A DNA stretch of 32,425 bases from Actinomycetes bacterium (GTDB taxonomy: Bacteria > Actinomycetota > Acidimicrobiia > Acidimicrobiales > JAJZXF01). The notes beneath the pieces were generated by a model. It was given only the letters and a program-made list of their open reading frames with translations, had not been told where the DNA came from and made no database searches. Location of the stretch: NCBI GenBank assembly GCA_021802485.1, contig JAJZXF010000022.1, positions 1 through 32,425 on the forward strand, read 5' to 3'. The translations under genes and the position numbers were made by a program. This document shows positions 17,445 through 32,425 of this stretch, in pieces. Each line of letters opens with the position of its first letter. Within the stretch, counting starts at the first letter, position 1.

Positions 17445-17478
17445 GTGAACATGGTAGCAGAACTGCTACCATGTTCAC
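17445..17478. promoter_or_regulatory. 34-bp perfect palindrome, antitoxin operator
   Basis: Two perfect 16-bp arms, the left reading GTGAACATGGTAGCAG (17445-17460), surround a central AA (17461-17462). The palindrome abuts the antitoxin start codon and contains the possible alternative start. Palindromes of this GGTAGCA-TGCTACC kind are typical binding sites of VapB-like antitoxins, so autoregulation is the natural reading. Confidence 0.8.
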
Positions 17479-17876: not shown

Positions 17877-19283
17877 TTATCGCTCCACAACCCTCGTCGC
17901 TTTGAAGCCTGAACGCGGCAATGTTCCTCTGGCGAGCACTTCCACCTGGGCCCGAATCCCCAAGTGGTCACGTACAGCGCTCGCACACCGCTCGGCTATC
18001 GAAAGCGCGTCGAGCACCGCGCCTGGGCTCTCAGCAGCCACGCGAGAACTGCTTGAGACGCCTCTCAGCTCGCTCGTCCCGCTTTGTTCGTCAACAGCGC
18101 CACGCGAAAATGGACCCTCCACCCGCACGACAAGCTCAGCTTGCTCATCCAAGGGCCTCACCACCTGGTACTCGAGCACTGGTTCAGCTACCTCGCCAAC
18201 AGACCTGAGGGCACTCTCGAGCTCAGAGACCTGGAAGCGCTTGCCCTGAGAACACAGCAGATCTTTGAACCTGCCACCCCATAGGCCCCGTATGGTCGTC
18301 TCGCCACATGGGCACGGGTCGCGAAGGATTGCGCAGGCCTCTTCTAAGTCGTAGCGAAGGAGACCGTTGTCGCGATCCAGAGTCGTGACGACGAGGTTGC
18401 CCCACTCGCCATCTGGCACCTCCTTGCCGGTCTCAGGATCAACCGCCTGGACCACAGCCCAGTCCTCGTGGATATGGGCTCCCGGACTCTGGCCGCAGGG
18501 ACCCCCAACGAACGAGTAGCACTCTGCTCCAGCGGTCATCAAGGGCATTCCCTTGCCAAGCCCGAAACCAGGCAGTCCCTTGAACTCGAGGCCAGCATCC
18601 GCTGGCTTAATCCCCAGCTTCTTTGCCACCTCGAAAAACCGCCCGGTCGAGAAACCCATGAACGGAATGTCCGGCTTCACGCGGGTCCAAAATCTCAGCC
18701 CCTGCTCCGCGAGTTCGTCAGTATCGGGTGGCGGGACCCACACGGTGAGTAGCCCAAAGTACTCGTAGGCGCCCGATAGCATCATGCCCCCGCCATATAG
18801 GTACCCAGGATGAGCATGCGTCACTATCATCCCCGGGCGATACCCCATGCGCCACCAATTTCGCGCGGCAGACTCGTACTCAACCCAGAGGTCATGGCGC
18901 GTCCACAGGATAATCGTCGGAGTGCCTGTCGTCCCGGTGGATGTTCCAAGCCTCACGCATGCTCGTGGATCGGTGAACCTGTACTCGCCCCACGGCGGCG
19001 CAACTGCCTCTGAGTCTCTCAGCTCTTGCTTCCTCGTGAGTGGCACTTGATCAAGCTCCGCGACCCCACATACGTCATCTGCGGAGCTGATCCCAGCGTC
19101 CCGGAGCTTCTCGGCGAAGAGCTTAACCGGACCCCCCAGGATCTTCGCAATGAGATCTCGGAGCCGTGAGGCCTGCACCTCTCTGAGCTGCTGTGGGTCT
19201 GCGGCCTGCATCGCAGGATCCCACAGCACCTGGTCTGGGTCGCGCTTGGCAGGACCCAAGATATCTGCCTTCGTGGCGTACAC
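17877..19283 (-). CDS. PaaK-like phenylacetate-CoA ligase family protein
   Basis: A 468-residue adenylate-forming enzyme of the PaaK/AMP-ligase group. It shows LGTSTGTTGTPT (113-123, ATP P-loop), PIAF-like central strands (MGFSTGRFFEV), LLRYDLEEACAIL followed by the cysteine motif CPCG, and a C-terminal GTLPRSGFKATRVVE with the likely catalytic lysine. Family members ligate CoA to aryl or other carboxylates. The C-terminal domain contains a Ser-rich insertion (SGTSELRGVSSSSRVAAES). The start is GTG 19283, backed by GGAGG five bases upstream. It is transcribed away from etfBA with 405 bases between. The substrate is not evident; an aromatic or ring-derived acid is plausible. Confidence 0.87.
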   Translation of the reverse strand: MYATKADILGPAKRDPDQVLWDPAMQAADPQQLREVQASRLRDLIAKILGGPVKLFAEKLRDAGISSADDVCGVAELDQVPLTRKQELRDSEAVAPPWGEYRFTDPRACVRLGTSTGTTGTPTIILWTRHDLWVEYESAARNWWRMGYRPGMIVTHAHPGYLYGGGMMLSGAYEYFGLLTVWVPPPDTDELAEQGLRFWTRVKPDIPFMGFSTGRFFEVAKKLGIKPADAGLEFKGLPGFGLGKGMPLMTAGAECYSFVGGPCGQSPGAHIHEDWAVVQAVDPETGKEVPDGEWGNLVVTTLDRDNGLLRYDLEEACAILRDPCPCGETTIRGLWGGRFKDLLCSQGKRFQVSELESALRSVGEVAEPVLEYQVVRPLDEQAELVVRVEGPFSRGAVDEQSGTSELRGVSSSSRVAAESPGAVLDALSIAERCASAVRDHLGIRAQVEVLARGTLPRSGFKATRVVER

Positions 19284-19370: not shown

Positions 19371-19417
19371 ACCGTTCCCGGTGAGTGTGCAGTAGTTGCA
19401 CACTCACCGGGAACGGT
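19371..19417. repeat. 47-nt perfect hairpin (21-bp arms)
   Basis: Arms 19371-19391 and 19397-19417 are perfectly complementary with the 5-base loop GTAGT. It lies between the divergent starts of the PaaK-like ligase and etfB. There is no T-run, so a classical intrinsic terminator is not shown. It could be a structured leader of the etf mRNA, a remnant of a mobile palindromic element, or a very long regulator site. Confidence 0.75.
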
Positions 19418-31414: not shown

Positions 31415-32208
31415 CTAATGCAGTGGTTCAGGATCATCCTCGCCCGGAAGCGCTAGCAGCGTTTCCCATATCCCCTCGACGAGGAGAGGGTTGAAGACGC
31501 GAACGCCCCGGACATTGAAGCGTTGCTCGCCGTTGTAGAGGACCGCACCTTCGGCGACACGTTTGACCCCCAGGGCGTGGAACTTCTCCAGTCCCCTGAT
31601 AAAGTCTACGGAAAATGTCCCCGCAGACTTTATCTCCACCGGTACGAGAGTACCTCTTCCCCTGATCAGAAGATCAACCTCGTTGCCATGGGAATCGCGA
31701 AAGAAGTACACCTCCGGCCTGATTCCAGTATTCAAGCCCCCCTTTATGATGTCTGCAATCACGAGATTCTCGTAAAGGCTTCCCCGCAACGGATCATGGA
31801 ATGCCTGTTCTGTCGTATGGATGCCCAGCAAGAAGGCCGCAAGTCCCACGTCGGTGAAGAGTATCTTTGAAGACTTGATCACACGTTTGCGGATATTCTC
31901 GGAAAACGGTGGCAGCTCAAACACAATAAACCACCCTTCAGAACCGACAGCCAGTTCTGGATGGTTGTACTCGATACGCCGACGTCGTTCGAGAGTGAAG
32001 CAAGGTTTGTTACCTGCCCGACACGACCCGCTAGCAGTACAAGGAACTTCTGGAATTGCGACAGATCGCGCAACCGGATGAGGTTCCGTACATCACGTTC
32101 GACGTAGGTTTGCAAGTAACTGTTGAAGAACCTACGCGGCTCAAGTTCTTCTTCGTGAAGCCGCGGAAAACATCCACGGACAATCAAGTCCCAACCGGTG
32201 GTGTACAA
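31415..32208 (-). pseudogene. Frameshifted, N-truncated DUF4143 ATPase
   Basis: The upstream piece (from about 32208, GTG) reads GWDLIVRGCFPRLHE, FFNSYLQTYVERDVRNLIRLRDLSQFQKFLVLLAGRVGQ and GVSSTTIQNWLSVL. In a second frame the protein continues WFIVFELPPFSENIRKRVIKSSKILFTDVGLAAFLLGI, with a PD-(D/E)XK-like end (GNEVDLLI...VPVEIKSA). The frames join at about 31934-31938, where a single base seems to be missing (AAGGG run on the minus strand). The AAA_14 ATP-binding half expected before residue 1 is absent; the IS605-type right end begins about 70 bases upstream and may have split the gene. The region has lower G+C than its neighbours, suggesting acquisition. Confidence 0.8.
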
Positions 32209-32232
32209 GGTGTCGCACAGCGACCCGCCGTA

Positions 32233-32273
32233 TCAACCTGAGCTGATGGCATCTACCAATCAGCTCAGGTTGA
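32233..32273. repeat. 41-nt perfect hairpin (15-bp arms)
   Basis: TCAACCTGAGCTGAT (32233-32247) is repeated in perfect inverse at 32259-32273 around an 11-base loop. It lies between the ATPase remnant and the right end of the IS605-type element, only four bases from that end. It could be a target hairpin favoured by the single-strand transposase, or a terminator. Confidence 0.7.
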
Positions 32274-32277
32274 GTAT

Positions 32278-32425
32278 TTGACCTCCTCCCACGGCTAGAG
32301 CCATGGGATTCCGACGTGTCTCCCTGGCTGTCTCGTCGAAGGCATTACGCCGCCTCCGATGCCGTAAGCGAACCACCGGCGGGTGCCGGTGCAGGGATGG
32401 TTGCGCCATCTTCGGTGGCGTTGCC
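32278..32425 (-). ncRNA. Probable IS605 right end / TnpB omegaRNA scaffold
   Basis: Read on the minus strand, the sequence after the tnpB stop contains a CCCATGGCT / AGCCGTGGG hairpin (32307-32299 with 32296-32288). It then runs GAGGAGGTCAA to about 32278, the usual layout of an IS200/IS605 right end. The stem closes fully in RNA of the minus strand through a U.G wobble, but has a C/A mismatch in the plus-strand RNA, which supports a minus-strand omegaRNA. The guide would be the flanking 32277-32258 (ATACTCAACCTGAGCTGATT). The 5' boundary is unknown and lies in or beyond tnpB. Confidence 0.5.
32345..32425 (-). CDS. tnpB: 3' end of tnpB (IS605-type OrfB), partial
   Basis: The last 26 codons of a minus-strand gene that runs off the window, ending ATIPAPAPAGGSLTASEAA and TAA (32347-32345). 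The low-complexity Ala/Pro/Gly tail is like the disordered C-termini of actinobacterial TnpB proteins, but no catalytic motif is inside the window. The identification rests mainly on the hairpin that follows. TnpB is an RNA-guided nuclease of IS200/IS605 elements. Confidence 0.45.
   Translation of the reverse strand, partial: GNATEDGATIPAPAPAGGSLTASEAA

Follow-up and report, generated by a model that had tools for sequence, protein, structure and literature searches.

The window analysed here, a stretch of 32,425 nucleotides, is the whole of contig C147 in a 2.86-Mb genome of 152 contigs (G000), and an element of the IS605 type is cut by its end. The original prediction was that the TnpB of this element would use a guide covering one arm of a perfect palindrome four bases from the element end, and that a target able to fold into a hairpin may matter for single-strand transposition or homing. 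The locus therefore raises the question of what kind of element ends here and whether the palindrome has anything to do with its machinery. The genome carries a heavy load of IS200/IS605 elements, with 27 matches to Y1 transposases and 35 to the TnpB family, and related elements are present in metagenome-assembled genomes labelled Actinomycetes.

Element boundary, target motif and predicted guide

The right end of the IS200/IS605-type element occupies the last 148 bp of the window (32278-32425, minus strand), where it is truncated by the contig end. Read from 32425 to 32278 on the minus strand, it has six further near-identical copies in this genome (97-99% identity). All of these end at 32278/32277 after GGTCAA (32278-32283, minus strand), the right cleavage site, and diverge there, giving one boundary common to seven right ends. 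Subterminal hairpins (CCCATGGCTTTAGCCGTGGG) lie near both element ends. The tnpB 3' tip that had been recognised at this end was found as a remnant (32345-32425, minus strand; ..GATIPAPAPAGGSLTASEAA) with a TAA stop at 32347-32345 and in the same frame as the tnpB genes of contig C99 and locus L105, although the copy itself is most likely a deletion derivative rather than a tnpB-bearing element (see below).

Left ends in this genome begin with CGAAAAGC immediately 3' of TGAC in all six young ends, and TGAC precedes eight of nine left ends once old ends are counted. Since the young left ends directly follow this motif, TGAC is the TAM as read from the sequences. An uninterrupted paralogous site in the same genome (C106) reads ..CCATGAC|ATACTCAAC.., while contig C83, which terminates in a left end, reads ..TTCATGAC|CGAAAAGC.. 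and the window reads ..GGTCAA|ATACTCAAC..; both meet C106 at the same base. The flank of C83 matches the same IS256-family tail that adjoins the right end in the window, up to the first base of the window flank. Insertion thus lies 3' of a fixed short motif, with no target duplication. The six copies and the empty site bear out both the assignment of an IS605-type right end to the minus strand and its termination at GGTCAA, and the left-end motif that the prediction had left to be found is present.

In ISDra2 the guide begins at the first flanking base (PMC8612924). By analogy with the reRNA of that element the guide predicted here is ATACTCAACCTGAGCTGATT (32258-32277, minus strand), with a length of 20 nt, or 16 nt if it follows ISDra2. 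The position originally proposed, 32277-32258, would be right on the same analogy, and the reading is plausible. A search across the genome for TGAC followed by the guide, allowing up to three mismatches, returned nothing besides the locus itself, and no exact guide match was found in viral contigs. Targeting of other IS256 copies by the guide was also considered and rejected, as C106 matches it over 9 nt and then carries an indel.

The predicted guide-RNA scaffold, the parent element and the tnpB tail

The predicted fold of the last 130 nt, read on the minus strand, comprises a closing stem, two hairpins, a short inner stem and a terminal hairpin. The putative omega-RNA core (32321-32397), supported by fold z-score and covariation, is closed by TCCCTG/CAGGGA (32397-32392 with 32326-32321) and contains hairpin A (32391-32385/32380-32374), the inner stem GCT/AGC (32369-32367 with 32329-32327) and hairpin B (32359-32352/32343-32336). 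The terminal hairpin, CCCATGGC-TCTA-GCCGTGGG, follows at 32288-32307. The z-score of the fold is -2.3 for the minus strand and -0.75 for the plus strand. In an alignment of 13 sequences 82.9% of scaffold cells were paired, compared with 34-52% in slid controls, and both-side changes affected 17 cells where shuffles gave 8.8, none of 500 shuffles reaching 17; the number of pairs with a both-side change in the same 13 sequences was not above shuffles. One inner pair of the terminal hairpin (columns 118/125) has been swapped from G-C to C-G in three copies. Prediction and covariation together point to a structured right-end RNA that ends at the element boundary. A search of Rfam gave nothing at gathering thresholds; a weak match to HgcC (RF00062) over the right end at L009:611-773 on the minus strand (20 bits against a cut-off of 50, E 0.019) is a lead only.

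It had been argued that the terminal stem is stabilised by a U.G pair only in the minus-strand RNA. The pair is indeed present there (U32303.G32292) and becomes C.A on the plus strand. The left end, however, contains this hairpin too, T.G pair included, and there it would be read by TnpA and not by a guide RNA, so the strand bias may serve TnpA instead.

The parent of these elements, pieced together from C37 and C99, is 2230 bp long and ends in GGTCAA, with tnpA starting at about position 101 and tnpB at 486. Its TnpA is a Y1 (HUH) transposase that matches the ISHp608 transposase (PDB 2a6m, E 5e-43) and PF01797 (E 2e-41); the window copy itself has no TnpA. The parent TnpB gives a weak but near-full-length match to NF040570 (E 2e-6, below the curated cut-off), and profile matches to the ISDra2 TnpB structures 8bf8/8h1j (E 0.004) and to LaTranC (8e-5). 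The RuvC D, E and D positions are invariant in L105 and two relatives, and the TNB zinc finger is reduced. The family resembles IS608 and ISDra2 of the IS200/IS605 group in its TnpA close to that of ISHp608, its subterminal hairpins, its right end in TCAA and its insertion on the 3' side of a short motif, which leaves no target duplication. It differs in the motif, which is TGAC here, TTAC in IS608 and TTGAT in ISDra2, and in its divergent TnpB with the reduced zinc finger (C-IGG..C-EEH). Just one closely related tnpB is present in the genome, that of C99, and it carries a 1-nt frameshift (one base lost near position 1715). An intact cognate TnpB was not found among the genes of this genome, so that TnpB function may be extinct here. 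The frameshift may also be an assembly error; the tnpB of a relative in another genome (L105) stays in frame through the same region.

Derivatives of the parent fall into distinct deletion classes. In the young class, seen at the left ends in C83, C3 and C5, positions 1-106 are fused to 1839 onwards, leaving 106 bp of left end and the last 392 bp. The older class (C49, C93, C140, C40 and C136) has its junction at an 11-nt repeat, TGTTCTCGGCA, found at about 128-138 and 1815-1825, and some of its members, for example C49 and C93, are complete on a single contig. C126 may represent a third class. The copies in C83, C3 and C5, and those in C49 and C93, have the characters of PATE-like or IS605-type MITEs, with both ends kept, the transposase gene lost and several copies present. 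A near-perfect palindrome of 40 bp (TTGACCTCCTCCCATGGCTTTAGCCGTGGGAGGAGGTCAA; G000:C20:19557-19596, L022:2058-2097) lies 3' of TTGAC within a tnpB-like ORF of another IS605 element and is apparently a terminal-only relic of an element of the window type.

The part of tnpB that the deletions spare is also unusual in its third codon positions. Between the parent and L105 these are 56% identical over the body of the gene (224/399) and 88% identical over 1815-2085 (79/90), and the best 270-nt window of the body reaches 62%; the contrast has a Fisher p of 4e-9, to be taken as a guide only as the boundary at 1815 was picked after the data had been seen. Comparisons with L126 and L128 give equally high third-position identity in the tail. 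The switch in identity, near position 1815 of 2230, falls where the MITE deletions stop (1815-1825 and 1839), and the probability of two breakpoints within 24 nt by chance is 0.02 under a uniform model. The coincidence of the jump with the breakpoints suggests that about 400 nt form a unit at the RNA level. Gene conversion or overlapping coding may also account for the identity; the covariation term of a consensus RNA fold over 1815-2105 was unfavourable, and in a second tnpB clade (L144/L150) the codon-position switch is less clear. The tails of L128 and L126 share a 24-bp insertion that folds as a hairpin of its own (GGCGTCC/GGACGCC in L128, GGTGTCC/GGACGCC in L126), as expected of an extension to an RNA stem.

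It is quite possible, and to us a serious alternative, that the scaffold is a dead fossil, conserved only through the need of TnpA for terminal hairpins and through the youth of the copies. This would fit the lack of an intact cognate tnpB among the genes found in the genome, the scaffolds of old MITE copies, which are merely about 53-70% identical to the parent, and the identity of the left and right hairpins, which recognition by TnpA predicts. Against it, helices beyond the terminal hairpin covary, and independent deletions have retained a right end of about 390-415 bp at whose start, or close to it, the nucleotide-level constraint begins.

Identity of the window copy and origin of the palindrome

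The 148 bp visible in the window cannot separate the parent from a derivative, and the genome also contains an autonomous parent (C99, with C37 or C136 as its left end). On these grounds the window copy might be a complete IS605 element with both tnpA and tnpB, whose TnpB directs its own guide at the hairpin site. We consider this improbable: the only left end with a matching IS256 flank, that of C83, has the deleted form, and the tnpB of the C99 parent is frameshifted. With a deleted left end on one side and a matching target flank, the window copy is most simply, and most likely, a PATE-like MITE of about 0.5 kb (~497 bp) that lacks tnpA and any usable tnpB. C83 and C147 would then be the two sides of one copy, joined by their flanks, with the middle unassembled.

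Transposase-less, multicopy derivatives of IS605-type elements have been described in Haloquadratum walsbyi as PATEs, or palindrome-associated transposable elements (PMC3119063), and a PATE-like element of 271 nt is present in Halanaerobium (PMC7290912). The elements described here are likewise core-deletion derivatives of IS605-type elements with near-terminal palindromes (PMC3119063, PMC7290912). In contrast to PATEs, they are actinobacterial, their deletion class can be identified against a parent, and they keep the guide-RNA scaffold together with a further stretch of about 260 bp from the 3' part of tnpB.

The insertion target was an IS256/Mutator-family element: the flank at 32184-32277 (minus strand) comprises its 3' tail with the right terminal inverted repeat (GTACACCACCGGTTGGGACTTGA) and is 88% identical to C106. 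Membership of this family is indicated by the relatives: that in C106 carries a Transposase_mut gene, and L096, L098 and L099 contain related transposase frames with left terminal inverted repeats. The copy beside the window element differs from these in retaining just the tail and right repeat. It is a remnant without its own transposase, since the gene upstream in C83 is a ribonucleotide reductase and not an IS256 transposase. On its other side it adjoins the C-terminal part of a DUF4143 gene (31415-32208, minus strand), which is read in two overlapping frames that both match PF13635 and which was presumably interrupted by the IS256 element.

The palindrome (32233-32273) lies within this tail. 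Its arms, 32259-32273 and 32233-32247, are 15 nt long, fully complementary and separated by an 11-nt loop; their perfection, the distance of four bases from the element end and the overlap of the 20-nt guide (32277-32258) with one whole arm are all as originally described. Perfect stems of at least 15 bp whose loop does not exceed 25 nt are found at only three places in the window (19371, 17445 and 32233), so the palindrome is not a matter of chance. The two others have settings of their own. At 19371-19417 an inverted repeat with 21-bp arms and a 5-nt loop lies between divergent ORFs that start at 19283 (minus) and 19689 (plus) and is a possible operator or terminator, and the 15-bp palindrome at 17445-17478 spans the start of a small antitoxin-like ORF adjoined by a PIN-like ORF, possibly as the autoregulatory operator of a toxin-antitoxin pair.

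Copies of the IS256 tail in several genomes (C106, L096, L097, L098 and L103) share a quasi-palindrome around GAGCTGATTGACCAGATGTCRTCAGCTC that is imperfect in all except the window copy. In the window copy ACAGG is replaced by CTG, so that the left arm complements the right arm exactly; this looks like a local template-switch mutation within the hairpin. The flanks of 13 other right ends contain no such palindrome, their best stems being 4-8 bp as in random sequence, and a preference for hairpins at insertion sites was rejected on this basis. The palindrome thus belongs to this one target and not to the TnpB machinery. That TnpA prefers sites next to extruded hairpins, or that TnpB needs a foldable target, is for all the closeness of a perfect 15-bp palindrome to the element end very improbable, given those 13 flanks and the quasi-palindrome in IS256 copies without an insertion. 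The tempting link between the hairpin and TnpB targeting, along with its proposed relevance to single-strand transposition or homing, is thus removed as unsupported.

Implications for the TnpB family

It can be said with good confidence that a non-autonomous IS200/IS605-type element of ~497 bp, with the anatomy set out above, has its right end at 32278-32425. An internal deletion would have joined left-end position 106 to position 1839 of the 2230-bp tnpA-tnpB parent, and the Y1 transposase of the parent presumably inserted the product in trans, 3' of a TGAC site in the IS256-family tail. The complete omega-RNA scaffold would have been kept, so that transcription across the right end would give an RNA with 20 nt of flank as its guide. 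If a cognate TnpB were provided in trans, it could cleave the empty site, TGAC plus guide, and so favour retention of the element. That the guide acts in trans today is doubtful. TnpB-driven retention has reportedly been described by Meers et al. in 2023, and IscB/TnpB omega-RNAs by Altae-Tran et al. in 2021.

The ISDra2 TnpB reRNA and the AmaTnpB omega-RNA, of about 126-150 nt (PMC8612924, PMC10278001), likewise combine the tnpB 3' end and right end with a flank guide and a left-end TAM, as predicted here; the nucleotide-level constraint in the present family, in contrast, covers about 415 bp. In at least two independent cases a deletion left the tnpA start region and the last ~390-415 bp in place, the latter apparently constrained at the nucleotide rather than the protein level. 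From this comes the idea, in our view an unlikely one, that the MITEs are mobile guide-RNA cassettes, protected in trans by TnpB as they spread and gaining a new guide with every copy. If it were true, the guide-RNA unit of this TnpB clade would be about 400 nt.

The element is ordinary in kind and well defined in anatomy, and the part worth following is the putative ~400-bp guide-RNA segment kept in its gene-less derivatives. For a divergent actinobacterial TnpB family, sequence alone gives the element boundaries, the TAM, the register of the guide and a model of the scaffold. The empty site allows TAM and guide to be tested directly, and the gene-less derivatives with their scaffold allow the same for protection by TnpB in trans.
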